A DNA stretch of 64,000 bases from NCBI RefSeq assembly GCF_002204745.1, contig NZ_NIRR01000003.1, positions 124,001 to 188,000 of the forward strand, written 5' to 3'. Both the position numbers and the translations under genes were made by a program. Numbering within the stretch: the stretch's first letter is position 1; each line of letters starts with the position of its first letter. The notes under the pieces were generated by a model. It saw nothing but the letters and a program-made list of their open reading frames with translations. It was not told where the DNA came from and searched no databases. This stretch comes from Hymenobacter amundsenii (GTDB taxonomy: Bacteria > Bacteroidota > Bacteroidia > Cytophagales > Hymenobacteraceae). Shown one piece after another: positions 45,269 to 59,378 of this stretch.

Positions 45269-46696
45269 TTACTTCCCCACTACTTTAAACAGTGTGCCAG
45301 CGCTGAGTTTGTCGGTGGTTTTCATGCCGTTGAGGATGGCCAGCTCCTCGTAGCGCTTGGAGGACACGCCGTTGGCGGCCAGGGCCTGGGCCAGCGTCTG
45401 GCCGGCTTTGGCGGTGCGGATGCGGATTTTCTCCGACTGGCGGTTGAGCTTGTTGGCATCGGTGAGGCGGCGGAAGCCCTGGGCGGTGCGCTGGAAGGCG
45501 GGGCCGTAGCTGTTGAGGGTGCCGGGGCCGCAGAGGCCGATGAGGGCGTAGAGCGTTTTGCCGTCCTGGATGATGTAGGAGAGCGTGCTGGCCTGCACGC
45601 CCTGGCGGCCCTGCTGGTCCTGGCCCACCTGGTCGCCCTGCACCACCACGGCGGGCAGGCCGTTGACGGTCGTGCTAGTGGCCTGGGGCGAGTTCAGGTT
45701 GAGTTCCTTGGCCAGGGCCTGGGCAGCTTCCTGGGCCGAGTTGCCGGGAGCCAGGGTAAGAATCTGGACGGCTTTGCCGTTGGGCTCGGCCATCTGGAAC
45801 TGCTGGGGCGAGTTCTGGTGCTGCCAGCCCTGGGGCACCGGAAACTGGAATTTCAGCTCGGGGTGGTAGAACACGCCGCTTTCCACGAAGCCCTGGCGCG
45901 GGTCGTCGCCGTAGGGCAGGCCCTCGAGCATGCGCAGGTAGCCGTTGCGGTTCACGGTGAGGGCGCGGCCGCCCTGCTGCTGTTTGGCCTTGGCGGCCAG
46001 CTGCTTCACGGTGCTGTAGCGGTCGGCCGAGTTGGGGTGGCTACTCAGGAAGGTGGGCGTGCCGCCCGCGCCGCTGGCCTGCTCCTCGCGCTGGAGGGTC
46101 AGGAAGAAGTCGGCCATGTGGGAGGCATCGTACCCGATCTTGCTCGAATAGGCCACGCCCAACTCATCGGCCTCACGCTCATCGTCGCGGCCGTACTTAA
46201 GGAACACCAGCCCCACGCCCTGGGAAAGCGGCTGGGCCAACGAGGCCACCCGCTTCGAGAAGATGGAGCCCAGCAGCAGCGCCCCGCTGGCCAGCGTGGA
46301 GCGGGTCTGCTGCTTTTCGCCGTGCTTGGCCGTAATATGGCCTAACTCGTGGCCCAGTACGCCCGCAAACTGCGCCTCATCGTTGAAATTGGCCATGATG
46401 CCGCGCGTGAAGTATACGTTGCCATCGGGGGCGGCAAAGGCGTTAATCACCGGCGAATCGACGATGGTAAACTGGTAACCAAAATCGGCACGGCTAGACA
46501 CAGCAGCCATCTGCTGGCCCTTCTGGTCGATAAATTTCTGGAGGGCCGGGTTGTTGAGCAGCCCAAATTGGGCAATTACCTGTGGGTCGGGCTCCTTGGC
46601 CGGCGGCGGCGTACGGAACGCGGTGGAGCCGGCCAGCGGCAGCAGCAGCAGCAGGGCCGCACGGCGCAGGGAGGCAGAGGAATAGGGAGTCTTCAT
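45269..46696 (-). CDS. M48 family metallopeptidase with LysM-like tail (paralogue 1)
   Basis: The start at 46696 (MKTPYSSASLRRAAL) gives a signal peptide ending near AGSTAF and 475 residues in all. The M48 zinc site HELGH lies in GVLGHELGHITAKH near 120, with the third ligand in READELG. The middle part has a conserved PELKFQFPVPQGW domain. The last 55 residues (RIRTAKAGQTLAQAL to LSAGTLFKVVGK) look like a LysM-type fold. Relatives such as BepA and LoiP work on outer-membrane protein quality. It is a close paralogue of the next gene upstream on the same strand. Confidence 0.9.
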   Translation of the reverse strand: MKTPYSSASLRRAALLLLLPLAGSTAFRTPPPAKEPDPQVIAQFGLLNNPALQKFIDQKGQQMAAVSSRADFGYQFTIVDSPVINAFAAPDGNVYFTRGIMANFNDEAQFAGVLGHELGHITAKHGEKQQTRSTLASGALLLGSIFSKRVASLAQPLSQGVGLVFLKYGRDDEREADELGVAYSSKIGYDASHMADFFLTLQREEQASGAGGTPTFLSSHPNSADRYSTVKQLAAKAKQQQGGRALTVNRNGYLRMLEGLPYGDDPRQGFVESGVFYHPELKFQFPVPQGWQHQNSPQQFQMAEPNGKAVQILTLAPGNSAQEAAQALAKELNLNSPQATSTTVNGLPAVVVQGDQVGQDQQGRQGVQASTLSYIIQDGKTLYALIGLCGPGTLNSYGPAFQRTAQGFRRLTDANKLNRQSEKIRIRTAKAGQTLAQALAANGVSSKRYEELAILNGMKTTDKLSAGTLFKVVGK

Positions 46697-46789
46697 GGGC
46701 AGCGGGAACAAAGAAGTGGGAACAGGCTCTCAACGCACCTCGACCGTAGAAAGGTTACGATAGCGGGTTGAGCAATGAGTTGCCAGGCA

Positions 46790-46823
46790 AAAAAACGCCC
46801 GGCAGCGCCATGCGCCGCCGGGC
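46790..46823 (-). terminator. Terminator after M48 paralogue 2
   Basis: Arms GCCCGGC and GCCGGGC with a T run on the minus strand lie 35 bp beyond the stop at 46858. Confidence 0.65.
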
Positions 46824-46857
46824 ATTCCGGCATTGGAAACCAAATACCCCGCCACTT

Positions 46858-48318
46858 CTACTTGCCCACTACTTTAAACAGCATCCCGCGTCCGAGTTTG
46901 TCGCTGAGCTCCATGCCGTTGAGGATGGCCATTTCCTCATAGCGCTTTTCGGGTATGCCGTTAGCGGCCAAGTTCTGGGCCAGCGTCTGCCCGGCTTTGG
47001 CGGTCCGGATGCGCACGTGCTCAGGCTGGCGGTTGAGTTTGCTGGCATCGGTGAGGCGCTGGAAGCCTTCCATGGTGCGGGTGAACACGGGCACATAGGC
47101 CGCGAAGTCCTGGGGAGAAGAGGCCCCGAGGAGCGCGTAAATCGTTTTGCCGTCCTGAATCAGGTAGGTTAGCACCTGCACACCGGCCACCTGCTGGCCC
47201 GTTTGGGGATCCTGCTGCACCTGGGTGCCCACGAAGGCCAGGGCCGGGAAACCGTTCACCGTCAGCTGGCGCGATTCGGCTACCTGCAGGTTGAGCTGCT
47301 TGGCCACGGCCTGGGCGGCCTCCTGGGGCGAGTTGCCGGGGGCCAGCGTGAGCATCATCAGGGCCTTGCCGGCGGGGTCGGCCATCTGGAACTGCTGGGG
47401 CGAGTTCTGCGACTTCCAGCCCTGCGGAATCGGGAACTGGAACTTCAGCTCGGGATGATAAAAAGCGTTGTTTTCCACGAAGCCCTGGCGCGGGTCGGCT
47501 CCGTAAGTGATGCCGTCGATCAGGCGCAGGTACTTGTCGCGGTTGACTTCGAGTGTCTGGGGCGTGCCGGGCTTCTGCTTCCACTGGGCCGCCAGCTGGT
47601 TGACATGCGTGTAGCGGTCGGCGGGGTTGGGGTGGGTGCTGAGGAAGTCGGGGATGGCCTGGCCGCCCGCCTGCTGCTGCTCGCGTTCCAGGGTGCGGAA
47701 GAAATCGGCCATTTCGGCGGCGTTGTAGCCGATTTTGGTCGAGTACTCCACCCCCAACTCATCGGCCTGGTTTTCGTCGTCGCGGCTGAATTTGAGCGTG
47801 AGCAGCTGCAACCCCTGCATGGCCTGCTCGCCGAACTGGGCCAGCCGGGGCGAGGCAATCATGGCCCCCATCAGGCCCACCTGGCTCAGGATGGCGGTAG
47901 TTTGCTGCTTGGCCGAGTGCCGGGCCGTGACGTGGCCGATTTCGTGGCCCAGCACGCCCGCGAATTGGGCTTCGTTGTTGAAATTGGCCATAATGCCGCG
48001 CGTAAAGTACACGTAGCCGCCCGGCACGGCAAAGGCATTAATCACGGGCGAATCGACGATGCGGAACTGGTAATTCAGCTCGGGTCGGTGCGAAATAGCG
48101 CCCATCCGGTCGCCCATCGTGTTGATGTATTGCTGGAGCTTCTGGTCCTGGTAGAGGCCGAACTGGGCCACCACGGCCGGGTCCGACTCCTTGCCCATAG
48201 CCAGCTCCTGCCCTTCCGACACGAGCATCACTTCTTTCTTGCCCGTAACGGGGTTGGTGGCGCAGCCGGCCAGCAGCAGCGAGGCGCTCAGCAGCGCGGG
48301 GAGAAAACGTTGGGTCAT
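46858..48318 (-). CDS. M48 family metallopeptidase lipoprotein (paralogue 2)
   Basis: The start at 48318 (MTQRFLPALLSASL) gives a lipoprotein signal with LLLAGC, so Cys19 is the lipid anchor; total 486 residues. The zinc motif is HEIGH in GVLGHEIGHVTARH, and the third ligand lies in NQADELG. The domain order matches paralogue 1, down to the tail (IRTAKAGQTLAQNL to GRGMLFKVVGK). One paralogue is lipid-anchored and the other is secreted without a lipobox. The terminator between them suggests separate transcription. Confidence 0.92.
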   Translation of the reverse strand: MTQRFLPALLSASLLLAGCATNPVTGKKEVMLVSEGQELAMGKESDPAVVAQFGLYQDQKLQQYINTMGDRMGAISHRPELNYQFRIVDSPVINAFAVPGGYVYFTRGIMANFNNEAQFAGVLGHEIGHVTARHSAKQQTTAILSQVGLMGAMIASPRLAQFGEQAMQGLQLLTLKFSRDDENQADELGVEYSTKIGYNAAEMADFFRTLEREQQQAGGQAIPDFLSTHPNPADRYTHVNQLAAQWKQKPGTPQTLEVNRDKYLRLIDGITYGADPRQGFVENNAFYHPELKFQFPIPQGWKSQNSPQQFQMADPAGKALMMLTLAPGNSPQEAAQAVAKQLNLQVAESRQLTVNGFPALAFVGTQVQQDPQTGQQVAGVQVLTYLIQDGKTIYALLGASSPQDFAAYVPVFTRTMEGFQRLTDASKLNRQPEHVRIRTAKAGQTLAQNLAANGIPEKRYEEMAILNGMELSDKLGRGMLFKVVGK

Positions 48319-48412
48319 GGGAATAGGATCAGGGTGAGAGGATACCTCTTCCAACGCAAATCCGCCCCCCGGCGTTGGCCACCGTTGCTAACATCCTCCG
48401 TAACAGGATCAT

Positions 48413-49894: not shown

Positions 49895-50112
49895 AGGGCG
49901 GGGCTTCGCTTCGCTGTCCTGCGGTTGCCCCCACCCGCCAGCAAACGGGAACTGCTAGAACAACTCAGGCGGCTTTTGTTTGACGCTAATCGTTGAATGG
50001 CGGGCGGGGGCAACCGCAGGACAGCGAAACCCCGCTCCTACCTCGTTCTATCGGTGTCGTTGAATGGCGGGCGGGGGCAACCGCAGGACAGCGAAGCGAA
50101 GCCCCGCCCCTA
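49895..50112. repeat. Three-copy repeat cluster, two direct and one inverted
   Basis: One copy (about 49897-49938) reads CGGGGCTTCGCTTCGCTGTC onward. The second (about 49999-50040) and third (about 50068-50112) are in the opposite orientation and contain GGCGGGCGGGGGCAACCGCA. ATCGTTGAATGGCGGG or TGTCGTTGAATGGCGGG precedes the direct copies. The third copy ends inside the stop codon of the DUF5103 gene. Confidence 0.75.
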
Positions 50113-51456
50113 CGGCCGGCGGCTGTTCACGTCTAGGCGCTGGTAGCCGATGAGTAGGTCGGTGCGGGTGCCGGGCGGGCGGTAGTACACCAGCAGATCA
50201 TACTGGTTTTCGGTTTCCTGGTGGCTGCCCTCCCAAGGCAGGCTGTTGGCCCCGGTGGGCGTTTGGGTGGCGTAGTAGTAGTTATAGTACCCCTGCTTGA
50301 GCAGCGCGTGGCCCAGATACACCTGGTTGGCTGCGTCGTAGGTCAGCTTGAACTCGTCGCGCAGCTGCCAGTCCGAGAGGGCCCCGATAACGTAGACCGG
50401 GCCGGGTGCGGGCACTGGCGAGCGGAGCTGGAACGTAACGTCGAGGTAGTCGGGGTTGGTGCCCGGGTCGCCGACGAACTCACGGCTTTCAATCAGGCGC
50501 TGGCCGTTGATGTCGTCGTACTGGGTGTAGCGCTGGTCGGCGCGGGAGGTTTCGGGCTGGAGCAGCGCGGCCCGGGGCGTGGCCTGGGCATCAATTTTAG
50601 CCACCCCTATGCCCGCCGAGCGGAACGTGCGCAAATCTACAAACCGGAACTCGCTGAAACCGGGAAAGGCGTTTTCGAAGTTGAAGTACTGGTAGTCGAG
50701 CTGCTGCTCGGCGTCGCGCACGAAGGTGGGCCGCAAGTTGTAGTGGGCGTTGTCCCAGCGGAAGTTCTGGCGCAGCACCACCTTGACCTCCTGGGCCGGG
50801 TTCACGAGGGCCATGTTGTAGCGGATGGTAAAATCGACCTGCTGCAAAATGTAGCGTTCCTGCCCCGCCACCGGAATGCCCTGCTTCATGGCAATCTGCA
50901 CCGCGCCTTCCTCGAACACCAACACCCGGCGGCTAAGCAGCGGGGTGCCGCCCGCGCCCTGCACCACCCACAGGTAGTTGCCCGAGAGCTTCACCCGCGG
51001 CATCTGCACCTGGTAGTGCTGGTAGGGCACTTTGGTGCTCACCGAGGGCCGGTAGTTGGTAATGAGCTGCTCGTTGATTTCACTCAGAAACTGCATGTCC
51101 GTCAAAATCGAGGGCTGCCAGTTCAGGTCGCAGTGGATGAGCTTGGCCGTGAGCCGCTGCCCCGCCCCGCCCAGCACATCGAACTCCAGCACCGGCGACT
51201 GGCCCTGGCCCAGCGGCACCACCGGCGGATTGAACACCTGCCCGAGCTGGCCCGTGGGCACGTAGCAGAGCACCGTCCGCACGTTGGGGTCATAGATGTA
51301 GTCCTCGTAACGCAGCTTTTTATCGGCGTAGTACTCAGTGCCGGTCTGCCCAGTCGTGGGCACCCGGCGGGCGGCATTGGGGTCGGTGATGGGCGTACCC
51401 AGCGGCACGCAGCCAGCGGCCAGCAGCAGGAAGCTTATAATCGGGAATAGACGCAT
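50110..51456 (-). CDS. DUF5103 family lipoprotein
   Basis: The start at 51456 (MRLFPIISFLLLAAG) gives a lipoprotein signal with LAAGC, so Cys16 is the lipid anchor, and 448 residues. The mature part matches the Bacteroidota family DUF5103: YEDYIYDPNVRTVLCY, LIHCDLNWQPS, a SNYRPS-like turn, LSGNYLWVVQ and WDNAHYNLRP. A late segment VYVIGALSDWQLRDE resembles a carbohydrate-binding module type 48 strand. The function is unknown; surface or periplasmic location is likely. The TAG stop is formed by the end of a repeat unit. Confidence 0.9.
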   Translation of the reverse strand: MRLFPIISFLLLAAGCVPLGTPITDPNAARRVPTTGQTGTEYYADKKLRYEDYIYDPNVRTVLCYVPTGQLGQVFNPPVVPLGQGQSPVLEFDVLGGAGQRLTAKLIHCDLNWQPSILTDMQFLSEINEQLITNYRPSVSTKVPYQHYQVQMPRVKLSGNYLWVVQGAGGTPLLSRRVLVFEEGAVQIAMKQGIPVAGQERYILQQVDFTIRYNMALVNPAQEVKVVLRQNFRWDNAHYNLRPTFVRDAEQQLDYQYFNFENAFPGFSEFRFVDLRTFRSAGIGVAKIDAQATPRAALLQPETSRADQRYTQYDDINGQRLIESREFVGDPGTNPDYLDVTFQLRSPVPAPGPVYVIGALSDWQLRDEFKLTYDAANQVYLGHALLKQGYYNYYYATQTPTGANSLPWEGSHQETENQYDLLVYYRPPGTRTDLLIGYQRLDVNSRRP

Positions 51457-51505
51457 AGTTGCGAATGTAATGCGAAAGGATGGTTCTGAGCGGTGTTGCA
51501 TGGCC

Positions 51506-51596
51506 GTAGCGCGAAGCTCCAGCTTCGCGTATCGTTGAACGAGGTCGTGTGGTGAGGTCGGGAGCAACAGTACGCGAAGCTGGAGCTTACCGCTAC
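51506..51596. repeat. Inverted repeat, CGCGAAGC family
   Basis: Outer ends GTAGCGCGAAGCTCCAGC and GCTGGAGCTTACCGCTAC pair with few mismatches. Inside, GTATCGTTGAACGAGGTCGT is the reverse complement of the centre of the repeat at 48.4-48.5 kb with one mismatch. Confidence 0.8.
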
Positions 51597-51669: not shown

Positions 51670-54361
<2,692 letters not shown>

Positions 54362-54841
54362 ATGGCCACTTATAATATTACGCTGACCCCAACTACCGCC
54401 GACGATTTAAATACGCTTTTTCAATTCCAGCTTGACGAGGAAGCGAACTATCTGGCCGCCTTTACCCCTGATAACCCAGGTAACAAAACCGCTTATCTGG
54501 AGAAGTACGGCAGGTTTCTAACCGAGCCGACCATTCATATGCGCACGATAAGGGCGGACAACACCATCGTGGGCAGCATTGCCAAGTTTATCATCGAAAC
54601 CGATGCAGAAATCACCTACTGGATAGACCGAAAATTCTGGGGTCAGGGCATTGCCCAAACTGCCTTGGCCGAATTTCTAAAGCTGGACCAGACCAGACCC
54701 CTGCGTGGCCGGGTGGCCTTTGACAACCACGCCTCGCAAAAGGTGCTGGAGAAATGCAACTTCCTCAGAATCGGCCAGGATGAAGGTTTTTCCAATGCCC
54801 GGCAAGCGAAAATCGCGGAATACATTTACCTGCTTGCCTAG
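54362..54841 (+). CDS. GNAT family N-acetyltransferase
   Basis: A 159-residue protein of the RimJ/RimL-like GNAT group, which transfers an acetyl group from acetyl-CoA to an amine. The acceptor side is LDEEANYLAAFTPDN. The cofactor region has IDRKFWGQGIAQTALAEFL with the Q/RxxGxG/A motif at about 97-102, and a final DNHASQKVLEKCNFLRIG block. It is AT-richer than most genes here. It lies directly before a repeat that resembles the end of an ABC-F gene. Confidence 0.9.
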   Translation: MATYNITLTPTTADDLNTLFQFQLDEEANYLAAFTPDNPGNKTAYLEKYGRFLTEPTIHMRTIRADNTIVGSIAKFIIETDAEITYWIDRKFWGQGIAQTALAEFLKLDQTRPLRGRVAFDNHASQKVLEKCNFLRIGQDEGFSNARQAKIAEYIYLLA

Positions 54842-54887
54842 CCACAAACCAAAGTGCTAGAGGCAAAATCAGGAACACTGATGAACC

Positions 54888-54980
54888 AAAAAGCCTCTCC
54901 CGAACTACGCTTCGGGAGAGGCTTTCGATTTCAAGGGGCGGGGCGGCTATAATCCGGCCAGCATTTGCCACCGGTCGTTA
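54888..54980. repeat. Direct repeat copy A: decayed ABC-F 3' end with terminator
   Basis: This segment matches 57407-57500 at roughly four of five positions, including GCTTCGGGAGAGGCTTTCGA and CGGCCAGCATT. On the minus strand its 3' part still reads NDRWQMLAGL-stop, against NDRWEMLAEV-stop at the end of the real ABC-F gene. The hairpin at 54890-54925 has a 15-bp perfect stem and serves as terminator for the GNAT gene and for blh. No ABC-F reading frame continues upstream of the last 11 codons. Confidence 0.8.
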
Positions 54981-55059
54981 TGGCAGTTTCGCAAACGGTA
55001 CACCTAAAGGCTGTGCTGTTACCAAGCGTACTCGTCCGGTTGAGGTTGCCAACCCGGGC

Positions 55060-56049
55060 CTAGTGCCGGGACTTCCATTGCGCTGCATCCATGCCCAGCG
55101 TAACGAGTAAGGCGTGCGGGAGCGTGACGACGGAAGCGGCCAGCAGCGCCAGGCTCACCAGCACCGGTCCGCTGGCCGTCCGTGTCCAGGCCAAGCCAAA
55201 CACCACCACCAGTCCTGCCAGGCTGATGAGTAGCAGCGGAGCCGAGCGGCGCAAAAAGAAGCGGATTTCGGCCCACAGGCTGCGCCGGGGGGCAGTTGGG
55301 TTGCGGTCCATCAGTTGGTTCATGCGCAGCACATGCTGCAGGCTGTGCCAGAAAACGAAGTATACGCCCGCCGCCAGCACTGGCGGCAGCACCACTAGTA
55401 ACACCAGCAGCAGTCCGGTTTCCAGCGCGTCGGTGCGGGCCAACTGCCCCTGCTGCTGCCAGTAGTAGCTCAGCCACAGCAGCAGCAGCCCCGCCAACAC
55501 CGCGGGCAGCAAGCCAATACCCAAGAGGCCGGGCGTGGTGGGCAGGTTAGCGGCCCCGGCCAGCGCCAGCAGCCCCCGCACAATATCCAGGGTTTCGGTG
55601 GGCCAATGCCAGAGAGGCACGGCAAACAGCAGCGTGCCCCGCAGCAGGCTATGGGCCAGCCACTGGCTGCGGTGGCGGGCCTGCGTCGGGGCATCGCCCG
55701 AGCCCCAGTGCCAGGCCGTAAGCCCAAAAAATAGGGCTACCGCCGCCGCCGGCTGCCACCACCACAACAAACCCACGGCAGCCGCCAACCCCAGGTAGCC
55801 CACCAGAAAGCCCGCCCAGTAGCGGCTTCGGCTCCGGACCAGCGTTGGGTGCGTGGCCGGCACCACAAACTGGTCGCAGGCGCCGTGGGCCACACCCAGC
55901 ACCACCATGCCGCCCAGTAGCACCGGCGCCAGCAGCCAGGTGGCAACCCCGGGAGCGAGCAGGCCCACGGCTACCGCGCCCAGCACCGCCGCGTAGGAGT
56001 AGCGCCGGTCGGGGCCCAACGTGGCCGCAGCAGAGGTTGATGGAGTCAT
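55060..56049 (-). CDS. blh: Beta-carotene 15,15'-dioxygenase, Brp/Blh family
   Basis: This 329-residue integral membrane enzyme cleaves beta-carotene into two retinal molecules, supplying the rhodopsin chromophore. It has about nine hydrophobic segments. The iron-binding His residues are visible at His55 (GVAHGACDQF), His114 (LTAWHWGSGD), and His235 and His239 (FWHSLQHVLRM); another His is in TLPHALLV. It follows the rhodopsin gene on the same strand with a 171-bp gap, the typical pairing. No carotenoid synthesis gene is in the window, so beta-carotene must come from elsewhere. Confidence 0.92.
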   Translation of the reverse strand: MTPSTSAAATLGPDRRYSYAAVLGAVAVGLLAPGVATWLLAPVLLGGMVVLGVAHGACDQFVVPATHPTLVRSRSRYWAGFLVGYLGLAAAVGLLWWWQPAAAVALFFGLTAWHWGSGDAPTQARHRSQWLAHSLLRGTLLFAVPLWHWPTETLDIVRGLLALAGAANLPTTPGLLGIGLLPAVLAGLLLLWLSYYWQQQGQLARTDALETGLLLVLLVVLPPVLAAGVYFVFWHSLQHVLRMNQLMDRNPTAPRRSLWAEIRFFLRRSAPLLLISLAGLVVVFGLAWTRTASGPVLVSLALLAASVVTLPHALLVTLGMDAAQWKSRH

Positions 56050-56109
56050 GTTGCTAGGGAAAGTATTTCCAGGTAAACGGCTGGAATGATTCGGGGTAGC
56101 CGAATTCCC

Positions 56110-56160
56110 AAAAAGGCATTCCCGCCCCCCTGCATCATGCTGGTGGAGGGCGGGAACGGG
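56110..56160 (-). terminator. Hairpin between rhodopsin and blh genes
   Basis: TTCCCGCCC and GGGCGGGAA flank a central loop of about 24 bases. There is no T run on the minus strand, so it may attenuate rather than end transcription into blh. Confidence 0.45.
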
Positions 56161-56220
56161 TGAACCAGTCGGGACATATAGCCCCTATGGAACGGGCTTG
56201 TAATCAACCCCGGGCCAAAA

Positions 56221-57018
56221 TCAGGCGGGCACCGTAGTAGCTCTGGTCGGGGCCGTGGGCATGGTTTCGTTCACGGCAGCAGCGCTCTTGCCCGACACGG
56301 CAATACCGTAGATTACCAGGCCAAAACCGATTTTATTGATCACGTCGGCAATATTGTAGAACAGGTCGACGCTCGATGCCTCCCAGCCCAGGCCCGTGTT
56401 CAGCCAGCCGCCCTTCATGCACATGTAGCCGATGGGGTAAATGGCCCAGCCTACCAGCACGAACCAGCCCAGGGCCCGAATGCCCTTGATAACAATTGCA
56501 TCGCCCGTGGAGCGCGCCAGCTGAGCGACTTCGCCATACCAGGCCGTGTACAGAATGTATACATAGCCAATTGTGGAGATGCTGCCCCACAGTACCGAGT
56601 GGAAGGTCGAACCATCGGAGAAAGCCTCACCGATGTAGCCGGCCACCAGCATCAGCACCGAGGCGGCAATCAGCTTCCATAGCAGGCCGATTTTAGCGCC
56701 GGCCGCTTTGGTGAGCAGGTAGAACTCGACGCACATCAGCGGTACGGTCAGCGTCCAGTCGATGTAGCGCAGGGCGGTGGGGGTTTGCTGCGTGGCCAGG
56801 TAGTAGTCGCGCATGTAGTAGTAGTGCACGGCGGCGATGCCCGTAATCAGGGCCGACACCAGCAAAGACAGTTTCCACTTACCCTCCACCGCGCTCCGCT
56901 CGGCGAAGAAGAACACAGAGGCCGCCAGCATGGCCATGTAGCCAGTGAAGAAGGTAAAGGCAATGGGGTCGTCAACCTTAATGTCGAGCATTTCGGCCAG
57001 AAAGAGAGGATTTGCCAT
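56221..57018 (-). CDS. Proteorhodopsin-type light-driven proton pump, possible carotenoid antenna site
   Basis: This 265-residue protein has seven membrane helices. Helix C has RYIDWTLTVPLMCVEF: Arg84, counterion Asp87, Thr91 and proton donor Glu98, the outward proton pump set. His65 in VHYYYMRD matches the His paired with the counterion in proteorhodopsins. Lys229 in VINKIGFG binds retinal. Met95 at the spectral tuning position favours green absorption. In helix E, VLWGSISTIGYVY has Gly145 where hand alignment places Phe152 of green proteorhodopsin. Small residues there open a window for an antenna carotenoid in xanthorhodopsin and relatives. blh follows. The upstream region is AT-rich with a palindrome at 57086-57103. 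Confidence 0.95.
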   Translation of the reverse strand: MANPLFLAEMLDIKVDDPIAFTFFTGYMAMLAASVFFFAERSAVEGKWKLSLLVSALITGIAAVHYYYMRDYYLATQQTPTALRYIDWTLTVPLMCVEFYLLTKAAGAKIGLLWKLIAASVLMLVAGYIGEAFSDGSTFHSVLWGSISTIGYVYILYTAWYGEVAQLARSTGDAIVIKGIRALGWFVLVGWAIYPIGYMCMKGGWLNTGLGWEASSVDLFYNIADVINKIGFGLVIYGIAVSGKSAAAVNETMPTAPTRATTVPA

Positions 57019-57406
57019 GGGAATAGGGGTTTGAAAGGTGGGAATTGTTTAATTTTTACTCCTGCATAGTTAAACAAGACTTTCGAATATTTGATAAAAT
57101 ATTTTTGCAGATATATGCATCGTTTACCCCTTATCCTGAAATGTTTGGCTTCCTGGGCCGCTTTTGCTTCAAGTGAAAACAGATTCAAAAAGGCCTTTAC
57201 CACATCAGAAGCGTACTTATTGAGAGTGAGCAGGTAACAAGCAATGCCCAGGCGTAGCATTGCCGGGGCCGTAGCGGATACAATAAAAAATAGTAGTTGC
57301 TTGGCAGCAAAGGCCTCTGTCGGCACTTGAAACACTGTCAGACAGATGGCAGTCTCGTAGTCGGCTTAAACTAAAGCAGCAGCTGAACAGTGAGATATGC
57401 CCAACG
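57019..57406. other. AT-rich region upstream of the rhodopsin gene
   Basis: About 390 bp, AT-richest at 57050-57120, where an AATATTT-GATA-AAATATT palindrome lies at 57086-57103, 67 bp before the ATG. No TAnnTTTG box was found. The minus strand has an open frame through 57335 that I do not consider a gene. Confidence 0.45.
57086..57103. promoter_or_regulatory. Perfect palindrome upstream of rhodopsin, possible operator
   Basis: Seven-base arms AATATTT and AAATATT with a four-base spacer. Its position 67-84 bp before the start fits an activator or repressor site; no regulator is known for it. Confidence 0.35.
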
Positions 57407-57500
57407 CAAAAGCCTCCCCCGAAGCACTATGCTTCGGGAGAGGCTTTCGATTTTAGGCGGCTGGCGGTTATACTTCGGCCAGCATTTCCCAACGGTCGTT
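57407..57500. repeat. Direct repeat copy B: functional ABC-F 3' end with terminator
   Basis: This copy contains the live end of the second ABC-F gene (stop at 57468) and its hairpin (57408-57445, with one mismatch in the stem). It is in the same orientation as copy A, 2.4 kb away, on the other side of the rhodopsin/blh pair. Confidence 0.8.
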
Positions 57501-59378
57501 GAGCTGGGCCAACTCCTTTTTTACCTGTTCGAATTTGAGCGTGGCATCCTTGAGCTGGGCGGCGTTATCGTAAATTTTGGGGTCGGCCAACTGTCTTTCG
57601 TATTCGGCCAGCTCCTTTTCGCGCTCGTCAATTTTCTTTTCTACTTCGGCCAGTTCCTTGAGGGCTTTCTTCTGGTCGGGCGACGGGGTTTTGGCGGGCG
57701 TGAGGTCGGCTTTGGGCTCCTCTTTGGGCAGCGGCTTGTTGGCCGAAGGAGAAGGAAGGCCGGCTTTCTTGGCGTCCCGCTCACGGTCTTCCTGCCACTG
57801 CTCGTACTCGGCGTAGGTGCCGGGGTACTCCTTGAGCTGGTAGTCCTCGATAAACCAGATTTTGTTGGCCACGTTCTCCACGAAAAACCGGTCGTGGCTG
57901 ATGACGATGTAAGTGCCCTCGTACTGTTCCAGGGCTTGGATCAGGATGTTGACCGACTGCATGTCGAGGTGGTTGGTCGGTTCGTCGAGCAGCAGGAAAT
58001 TGGCCTCCGAAATCAGGGTTTTGGCCAGCGCCACCCGGCTTTTCTCGCCGCCGCTCAGAACCTTGATTTTCTTGTACACCTCCTCGCCCGTGAACAGGAA
58101 CGAGCCCAGCACCGAGCGCAGCTCCATTTCGTTGCGCTTCGAGCCGGCCTCAATCATCTCCTGCAGAATCTCGTTCTCGATGCGCAGGCTTTCGAGCTGG
58201 TGCTGGGCGTAGAACGACATAATGACGTTGTGGCCTAGCTGGTGGTTGCCGTTGGTGGGCGCTTCCTGGCCCGCCACCAGCCGCATGAGCGTGGATTTAC
58301 CCTTGCCGTTGGCCCCGATAAGCGCGATTTTGTCGCCCCGCTCGATGTGCACGGTGGTGTCGCGGAAGATGATTTTCTCGCCGTACTTCTTGCCCACGTG
58401 CTCCATGCGCAGGATGTGGCGGCCGGGATTCACCGTGAAGTTGAACTTCATGTTCACCTTGGCATCGGCGCTGGCCACGTCCTCCACGCGCTCCAGCTTG
58501 TCGAGGGCTTTCACGCGGCTCTGGGCCTGCTTGGCCTTGCTGGCTTTGGCCTTGAAACGCTCGATAAACCGCTCAGCCTGCTTTATCTGGGCCTGCTGGT
58601 TTTCGAACGCGCCCTTCTGAATGGCGTTGCGCTCCTCCTTCTCTTCGAGGTAGTAGCTGTAGTTGCCGGCGTAGGGCACCAGCTTGCCGCCGGCCACCTC
58701 CACGGTGGTGTTGGTGGTGCGGTCGAGGAATTCGCGGTCGTGGCTCACGATAATCACGGCACCCTCGTAGCCGGCCAGGTAGTTCTCAATCCACTTGATG
58801 CTGGGCAGATCCAGGTGGTTGGTGGGCTCGTCTAGCAGCAGCAGCGAGGGTTGCTGAAGCAGGATTTTGGCCAGCATCACCCGCATCCGCCAGCCACCCG
58901 AAAACAGCTTCAGCGGCCGCTGAAGCTCCTCGGTAGTAAAGCCCAGGCCCTCCAGGATTTCTTCGGTGCGGGCCTGCATGGTGTAGCCGCCCAGCAGCTC
59001 GAAGCGCTCCTGCGCATCGGCCAGCTTCTCCACCAAATCGTCGGAGTAGTTGTTCTCAAACTCCAGCAGGATTTCGTCAATCTTCTTCTGAATATCCAGC
59101 GCCTCGCCGAAGGCTTGCATAGCCACCATCAGGATGGACTCATGCGAGTCGTAGCTCAGCAAATCCTGGTTCAGAAATCCCAGGCTCACGTCCTTGCTCA
59201 TCGAGATGGAGCCGCCATCGGGCTTGTACTCGCCCACCAGAATGCGCAGCAGCGTGGATTTGCCCTTGCCGTTGAGCCCAATCAGTCCAATTTTGTCCTT
59301 AGGCTTGATGTGCAGGCTGGCCTTGTCGTAGAGGGCGCGGGAGCCAAAATGGAAATCGAGGTCGGAAATGGAAATCAT
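57468..59378 (-). CDS. ABC-F family ATPase, second copy (YheS/YbiT-like)
   Basis: A 636-residue soluble protein with two ABC domains. Domain 1 has Walker A GLNGKGKS at 34-41, signature FSGGWRMRV and LLLLDEPTNHLD. Domain 2 has GANGKGKS, LSGGEKSRV and LLLDEPTNHLD. The linker between them is long, charged and helical (QAERFIERFKAKASKAKQAQ). The C-terminal part is a coiled coil (KALKELAEVEKKIDEREKEL). It differs from the Uup-like protein at 1.8-3.7 kb, notably in signature 1 and the absence of the extended Ala/Pro hinge. A -7 box lies 29 bp upstream. Confidence 0.93.
   Translation of the reverse strand: MISISDLDFHFGSRALYDKASLHIKPKDKIGLIGLNGKGKSTLLRILVGEYKPDGGSISMSKDVSLGFLNQDLLSYDSHESILMVAMQAFGEALDIQKKIDEILLEFENNYSDDLVEKLADAQERFELLGGYTMQARTEEILEGLGFTTEELQRPLKLFSGGWRMRVMLAKILLQQPSLLLLDEPTNHLDLPSIKWIENYLAGYEGAVIIVSHDREFLDRTTNTTVEVAGGKLVPYAGNYSYYLEEKEERNAIQKGAFENQQAQIKQAERFIERFKAKASKAKQAQSRVKALDKLERVEDVASADAKVNMKFNFTVNPGRHILRMEHVGKKYGEKIIFRDTTVHIERGDKIALIGANGKGKSTLMRLVAGQEAPTNGNHQLGHNVIMSFYAQHQLESLRIENEILQEMIEAGSKRNEMELRSVLGSFLFTGEEVYKKIKVLSGGEKSRVALAKTLISEANFLLLDEPTNHLDMQSVNILIQALEQYEGTYIVISHDRFFVENVANKIWFIEDYQLKEYPGTYAEYEQWQEDRERDAKKAGLPSPSANKPLPKEEPKADLTPAKTPSPDQKKALKELAEVEKKIDEREKELAEYERQLADPKIYDNAAQLKDATLKFEQVKKELAQLNDRWEMLAEV

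Follow-up and report, generated by a model that had tools for sequence, protein, structure and literature searches.

Genomic islands that insert at the 3' ends of genes bring a copy that restores the end, displace the old end, and can accumulate by serial insertion. A comparable arrangement is present in the stretch of DNA analyzed here (the window), 64,000 nucleotides of Hymenobacter amundsenii (genome G000; contig NZ_NIRR01000003.1, positions 124,001 to 188,000 of the forward strand), where a rhodopsin gene and blh are located between the live 3' end of an ABC-F gene (copy B) and a fossil copy of that end (copy A). In our view, a gene-end cassette that recombined into the ABC-F gene of an ancestor of a small clade probably carried rhodopsin and blh as its cargo. 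Compared with 3'-end genomic islands, no recombinase was found in the ABC-F cassettes and no fixed attachment core was demonstrated. The cargo itself resembles the proteorhodopsin-blh photosystem, in which the same two gene families are adjacent; the difference here lies in location and mode of arrival, not in the proteins.

In Vibrio cholerae, modules of type VI effectors and immunity genes are displaced serially, and the model for this is nearly the same as the one that we propose for ABC-F. Kirchberger and colleagues (PMC5361080) propose homology-facilitated illegitimate recombination, with no integrase known; a conserved upstream part anchors the incoming module, which moves the old 3' part and whatever follows it further downstream, so that arrays form, and in one case the 3' end of the old effector was shifted back. 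The two systems differ in the exchanged gene, a toxin there and a housekeeping ABC-F factor here, whose end is apparently a vehicle. They also differ in cargo, which at ABC-F is unrelated to the anchor gene (light use, a hydrolase-like open reading frame (ORF), a methyltransferase), and in that several ABC-F fossils begin at one conserved block. Hot spots between fixed core genes, often without a mobile element and with flanking core genes that recombine more, are described in PMC5635113. The ABC-F site is like these in its varying cargo between fixed core genes; it is distinguished by crossover through the end of the flanking gene and by fossil ends with a readable type.

At the level of titles and abstract openings, the literature on Hymenobacter rhodopsins and related terms yielded no account of this site. 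The proposed displacement of a housekeeping gene's end, with its typed fossils and its units in changed order, leaves readable scars of how accessory genes enter a chromosome when no mobile element is involved. Statistics are often the sole evidence for this step; here the order of events can be read because the scar keeps the type of the old end. The patchy distribution of rhodopsin phototrophy thereby gains a concrete route of spread, and the locus provides a case in which the C-terminal domain of a core protein, here ABC-F, may vary because of the DNA that lies behind its gene.

The repeated gene end and its probable native copy

The ABC-F gene (57468-59378, minus strand) is the anchor of the locus and encodes a YheS-like protein of 636 aa, with the C-terminal domain (about residues 545-636) as the exchanged part. 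Its Pfam matches are two ABC_tran domains, ABC_tran_Xtn, and ABC_tran_CTD (571-635), its best solved relative is YheS 9vvi (E 2.7e-121), and 117 of 120 genus genomes contain one match at E <= 1e-150. Gene order on the minus strand is ABC-F, copy B, rhodopsin, blh, copy A, a convergent GNAT gene, KatG, and a T9SS plug gene, which agrees with an earlier reading made from the DNA letters alone (the sequence-only reading) that the rhodopsin and blh genes lie between two same-strand repeats. The repeat is real. Copies A (54888-54980) and B (57408-57500) match on the same strand with 84% identity over 94 columns (E 4.9e-20) or, without gaps, in two pieces of 39 and 38 bases at 87% each, and both consist of 11 matching final ABC-F codons and the stop, followed by a hairpin of the same class. 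In copy B, the live end, the codons and stop occupy 57468-57500 and the terminator hairpin 57409-57447; in copy A, which we read as a fossil of the native end, they occupy 54947-54979 and about 54892-54925. The fossil tail sits 2.5 kb downstream of the live gene end. RNA folding of the hairpins at copies A and B gave -29.2 and -35.9 kcal/mol (z -6.2 and -8.6).

A sequence search of the same genome found no third copy. The next-best matches cover the hairpin only, with E values of 8e-4 and 0.0015 (the copies' other strand) and 0.0028 (elsewhere), so that the hairpin is not a many-copy generic terminator, a possibility that the sequence-only reading had raised against itself. As a control, ORFs of at least 150 aa, 51 from the window and 287 from a 400-kb part of a second contig of the same genome, were each searched with their gene end plus 65 bases against the next 8 kb, skipping ORFs less than 1 kb from the end of a stretch. 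Six matches reached E <= 1e-4, ABC-F (1e-21) among them. One is a full-length tandem paralogue at 46858-48354; another, of 100 bases and stronger than that of ABC-F (5.5e-23), belongs to the end of a 478-aa ORF on contig C43 that is probably not a gene, since it lies opposite a 524-aa open stretch; the remaining three fall entirely downstream of the stop codon. ABC-F is the sole probable gene with a lone gene-end copy among the 51 and 287 ORFs sampled. The own-genome search and the ORF control rule out chance and a generic terminator as sources of the repeat, and a paralogue reading suits another gene pair of the window, not ABC-F.

The cargo rhodopsin (56221-57018, minus strand) is proteorhodopsin-like (Pfam Bac_rhodopsin, PF01036, E 1.1e-40), and its closest solved chain is proteorhodopsin 9jov (E 3.4e-73). 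Its helix-C stretch DWTLTVPLMCVEFY aligns with 9jov and contains what we take to be the proton-pump residues, making this member of the microbial rhodopsin family a predicted pump. The second cargo gene, blh (55060-56049, minus strand; Pfam BCD, E 6.5e-52), encodes a beta-carotene 15,15'-dioxygenase, which makes retinal. Behind it is a right-hand spacer (54980-55059, minus strand) that can be aligned in all six members of the clade.

Rhodopsin was matched at the cut-off in 47 of the 120 genus genomes, and besides the window it is at least 95% identical only in G058 (H. psychrophilus, a close relative), G079, G034, and G114; in these four it immediately follows ABC-F and is accompanied by blh and another gene end. 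Together with G087, which has the layout without rhodopsin, the clade numbers six. Identity between copies A and B is 85% over 163 columns in G058 and 69-72% in G114, G034, and G079. The fossil retains about 24-28 codons in G058 and G087, where copy A starts near LKFEQVKKE, 74-85 bases ahead of the last base of the stop; G000, G034, G079, and G114 have a common shortened junction before the fossil, at which 11 codons remain. Copy A owes its length of 11 codons to a secondary truncation, and the pattern fits one insertion in the common ancestor and one later truncation. The rhodopsin pair probably used the ABC-F site once, in this one clade. Among 87 rhodopsin loci (7 from genus genomes, 80 named), an ABC-F at least 50% identical was found near rhodopsin only in the H. 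psychrophilus locus.

In G087, the ABC-F contig runs through another spacer to blh and ends in an apparent insertion-sequence terminal repeat; blh has an in-frame nonsense codon replacing a conserved Trp codon and no rhodopsin gene in front. A second contig opens with a near reverse complement of the terminal repeat (one difference in 19 bases) and continues through the shared spacer and copy A to KatG. From these end sequences we infer that the two contigs adjoin. The sequence-only reading had held that rhodopsin-free relatives with both copies would speak against insertion; G087 has both but keeps blh, and is hence a secondary loss of rhodopsin, with the light module decaying there (L041). 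Elsewhere, G063 has a rhodopsin 87% identical to that of the window (L155, 9063-9803), away from ABC-F, with an in-frame stop for a conserved Trp codon, which makes it either a pseudogene or a sequencing error.

Two genomes without the rhodopsin-blh pair at this site, the close relative G003 and the more distant G065, have a single ABC-F end, as the sequence-only reading had expected of such relatives. The sequence behind copy A in clade members also lies directly behind these single ends. Behind copy A of G114, 203 bp starting 6 bp behind the stop match G065 (78%, E 9e-42), while 63 bp including the terminator (94%) and a further 209-bp block (82%) match G003; behind that of G034, 94 bp match G065 at 87%. 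The sequence after the single end of G065 continues into KatG. All six clade members have on copy A the terminator class of the G003 and G065 single ends (the A class); on copy B only G000 and G058 have it, and G034, G079, G087, and G114 have a different class. Because the single ends of G003 and G065 share both the following sequence and the terminator class, the comparison supports copy A as a decayed former gene end at the native place and copy B as the end that arrived or was later exchanged. The position of the pair, the empty sites, and the decay are directly observed. The sequence-only reading was largely right: insertion at the ABC-F 3' end and a decayed far copy are retained here, with copy B, not copy A, as the end that came in or was later exchanged.

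In G000 and G058, copy B has a flank that by eye is like that of other members, with an A-class terminator; this could be a short conversion from copy A or the original state that the others later exchanged. The live end may have gone on being exchanged, as suggested by the C-terminal domain of G079, in which columns 540-600 are 80-84% identical to other members compared with 93-95% in the core, and by the different live end of G087. The locus of G065 (L052) has an ABC-F core at 86-87% to the clade and a KatG at 95% to that of the window, and columns 600-640 of its C-terminal domain are at 90-95% to seven of eight genomes compared (83% to G079). It is apparently a mosaic locus that recombined with the rhodopsin clade.

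Other cargoes and end types across Hymenobacter

The genus survey covered ABC-F and 0.2-12 kb behind it (for G000, the rest of the window) in 113 of the 120 genomes, and neighbours were surveyed as the first four per locus. Outside these counts are G009, G118, and G060, whose ABC-F is broken by frame changes, G097, and G094, G099, and G107, without a match at the cut-off. G009, G118, and G060 have live ends of types I, I, and II and no second end in a protein search; their frame changes (L258, L259, and L260) are assembly errors or real. Fossils may be missed where the contig holds little DNA behind ABC-F (0.2 kb in G112, 1.0 in G028, 1.3 in G087, and 1.5 in G073 and G022).

Fossil ABC-F ends are present in 11 of the 113 genomes: the six clade members and G002 (two fossils), G010, G015, G016, and G052. 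A search of 75-base gene ends against downstream DNA, accepted at E <= 1.8e-6, found those of G058, G015, G010, G002 (two), G114, G052, G016, G079, and G034, all on the strand of the gene. The best opposite-strand match, 3.5e-5, equals the value of G000 itself, whose second end reaches 1e-20 with the terminator included; results above the threshold on both strands were disregarded except for G000 and parts of counted fossils. In G002, G010, G015, G016, and G052 the fossil is of a different type from the live end and other cargo lies between. In these five more distant species two ends without rhodopsin are present, as the sequence-only reading would have counted against itself, but with other cargo and different types, which widens the reading and does not refute it. 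Measured before the end of the stop, the fossils start at about 400 bases in G010, the longest, which runs into the conserved core, at 182 in G016, at 52 in the first of G002, and at 70-91 in four of seven (the rhodopsin clade, G015, G052, and the second of G002).

G002 and its sister species G016 contain the same two end and cargo units in opposite order. G055 has a type I end and then an ORF of roughly 700 residues (no Pfam match, and hydrolase-like from its appearance). G016 has a type I end, the same ORF, a fossil type III end, and an exosortase-like gene (a weak Pfam match under the cut-off). In G002 the live end is of type III and precedes the exosortase-like gene, after which come a fossil type I end, the ~700-residue ORF, and a further type I end. 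The terminator of the first G002 fossil matches that of the live G016 end (68 bp, 87%), the ORF behind this fossil matches those of G055 and G016 (2.1 kb, 86-89%), and the region behind the G016 fossil matches that behind the live end of G002 (1.5 kb, 77%). An old end downstream of new cargo, followed by its old neighbours, is found both in the clade compared with G003 and G065 and in G002 compared with G016 and G055. Directly behind the fossils of G010, G015, and G052, no partner neighbour was found, and known neighbours start again at least 0.9 kb further on.

Ten further candidates for a second copy were rejected: G056, G082, and G057 are short and within other coding sequence; G075 and G076 represent a repeated intergenic palindrome without a gene end; G050, G011, and G074 cover, from their coordinates, the terminator region only; and G053 and G038, also judged from coordinates, are short (E 0.009 and 0.001). 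The palindromic intergenic repeat of G076 (L075) and G075 (L077) is GC-rich and occurs twice, once immediately after ABC-F and a second time about 0.68-0.86 kb past the stop.

Live ends in the 113 genomes are of three types: I (LNDRWEMLAEM) in 82, II (AQTKRWEELV) in 19, and III (WEKLAERAEQLEK) in 12. On a tree of ABC-F residues 1-540, these types need 19 changes, where the minimum possible is 2, and type by type the well-supported (starred) branches force at least 7 or 8. In the 28 closest different-type pairs listed, the first 1500 bases are 92-95% alike, identity drops to 15-49% at alignment columns 575-590, and it is 56-80% in columns 605-650. Read by eye, G025, G119, and G098 have mosaic ends with a type II linker and a type I tail. 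A conserved homologous anchor is present on one side, with about 82-96% DNA identity in the ABC-F core in the pairs seen. At a core identity of 0.92-0.95, 37 of 89 pairs of the same type share proximal cargo, as do 5 of 32 pairs of different type; the pairs are not independent of one another.

The far boundary of the variable interval in most genus genomes is the T9SS plug gene (50110-51567, minus strand, in the window; Pfam T9SS_plug_1st), which was in the fetched stretch of 96 of the 113 genomes, 288-7725 bp behind ABC-F (median 2877). Between ABC-F and this gene, varying cargo lies between conserved neighbours, as in a hot spot flanked by core genes. The best reading is that the ABC-F site is a general hot spot for many cargoes, of which the rhodopsin pair is one of several; the sequence-only reading, which had proposed a hot spot for the rhodopsin module, was right about the hot spot, and the pair apparently entered once.

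Proposed mechanism and rival explanations

We propose that a cassette made of an ABC-F 3' end, a terminator, and cargo entered the ABC-F gene of the ancestor of the small clade. Conserved ABC-F sequence would act as the anchor, leaving the gene intact with the incoming end, and the recipient's own end would be displaced behind the cargo, to survive as copy A. Ordinary RecA recombination is likely on the anchor side; on the far side, either a second crossover in a conserved block (LKDATLKFEQVKKE) or illegitimate joining would complete the event. Later exchange between copies A and B, or of the live end alone, would account for the 84% identity in the window compared with about 70% in G114, G034, and G079. 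The crossover itself and its direction are reconstructed from the traces that it would have left. Elsewhere in the genus the process would act on ABC-F repeatedly, bringing different cargoes and end types, with no dedicated recombinase in the cassettes. More tentatively, and we would sooner doubt than assert it, the ABC-F 3' end might be a recombinase-free cassette port, an integron-like array without an integrase that delivers phototrophy genes among other traits. Units of end, terminator, and cargo would then be inserted, stacked, reordered, and lost via short conserved blocks of the C-terminal domain. No intact PF00589 match that could represent an integron integrase was found at the locus in the 11 fossil-bearing genomes.

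Several points weigh against these proposals. The single end of G003 and G065 could in principle also come from excision by recombination between copies A and B, and the direction of the event then turns on which of the two states came first; G003 falls outside the rhodopsin carriers on the tree, but branch support in that part is weak (81-94). With both copies of type I, the case for a foreign copy B comes from its terminator class, which differs in four of six members. No donor with ABC-F, rhodopsin, and blh was found outside the clade among the genus genomes and the 87 rhodopsin loci. In two distant loci from other families, L164 and L191, a related rhodopsin (83% and 73% identical) has a KatG homologue (69% and 63%) about 3-4 kb away, an arrangement like that of the window, which is either chance or an older rhodopsin-KatG link. 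The concentration of four of the seven fossil starts at 70-91 bases is not predicted by plain illegitimate joining, and the G052 fossil, which has several stops, was missed by the protein search and kept after reading of the DNA. Across the genus, starred branches make up only 18 of the 107 inner branches in the core tree. The linkage of end type and cargo is weak: at a core identity of 0.89-0.92, cargo is shared by 44 of 463 same-type and 23 of 289 different-type pairs, and below 0.89 same-type and different-type pairs do not differ.

A site-specific integrative element, whose recombinase targeted the ABC-F 3' end, carried a replacement end, and was later lost, with copy A as the far attachment site, would leave just such a restored end, displaced far end, and serial accretion as in G002 and G016, and the start of four of seven fossils in one short block suits it as well. 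A degenerate tyrosine-recombinase fragment, under the Pfam cut-off, is indeed present behind the second G002 fossil, outside the cassettes; within the cassettes of the 11 fossil-bearing genomes, however, a Pfam search found no tyrosine recombinase (PF00589). The 14 cassette ORFs scanned with Pfam contain no recombinase family, serine recombinases and transposases being covered by these scans only; their matches are to rhodopsin, blh, a methyltransferase, a phosphoesterase, weakly to an exosortase and a cyclase, or to nothing. The fossils, moreover, extend upstream from the end of the stop by between about 52 and about 400 bases, and the end types differ over about 90 codons, beyond what an attachment site needs, and we regard such an element as unlikely.

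Still less probable is a tandem duplication of the native ABC-F end with later arrival of rhodopsin and blh between the copies. The single terminator class of both copies in G000 and G058 agrees with it, but copy B differs in class in four of six clade members, and the fossil type differs from the live end in five other genomes, which duplication could not produce. A further rival is coincidentally similar terminators, or a short mobile hairpin element without gene-end origin. Terminators of this class do follow ABC-F in 16 of the 113 genomes (by a simple pattern), yet the match spans the last 11 codons, and about 24-28 in G058 and G087, and only the other matches in the genome are limited to the hairpin; the coding part of the match refutes this explanation, to which we give almost no weight.

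Neighbouring features of the window

The GNAT acetyltransferase gene (54362-54841, plus strand; Pfam Acetyltransf_3) is convergent and lies between copy A and KatG. Because none of the other five clade members was found to have it there, it belongs neither to the cassette nor to the native site, and the expectation of the sequence-only reading that relatives would have GNAT next to ABC-F fails; the recurring neighbours are KatG and the T9SS plug gene. KatG, a catalase-peroxidase (51670-53937, minus strand; tblastn), is the recurring native neighbour behind the old gene end and was matched by tblastn behind ABC-F in relatives both with and without the cassette. The interval between the old gene end and KatG (53938-54887 in the window) holds a main ORF on the opposite strand that is apparently a different one in each of G000 (GNAT), G034, G058, G079, G114, and G065, and is thus variable too across these six genomes.

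Just behind the T9SS plug gene, a 39-base sequence recurs exactly about 70 bases further on. The tandem paralogues of the window are two adjacent genes (45272-48354, minus strand) that are 62% identical, and which we take to be M48-type peptidases with a LysM-like end.

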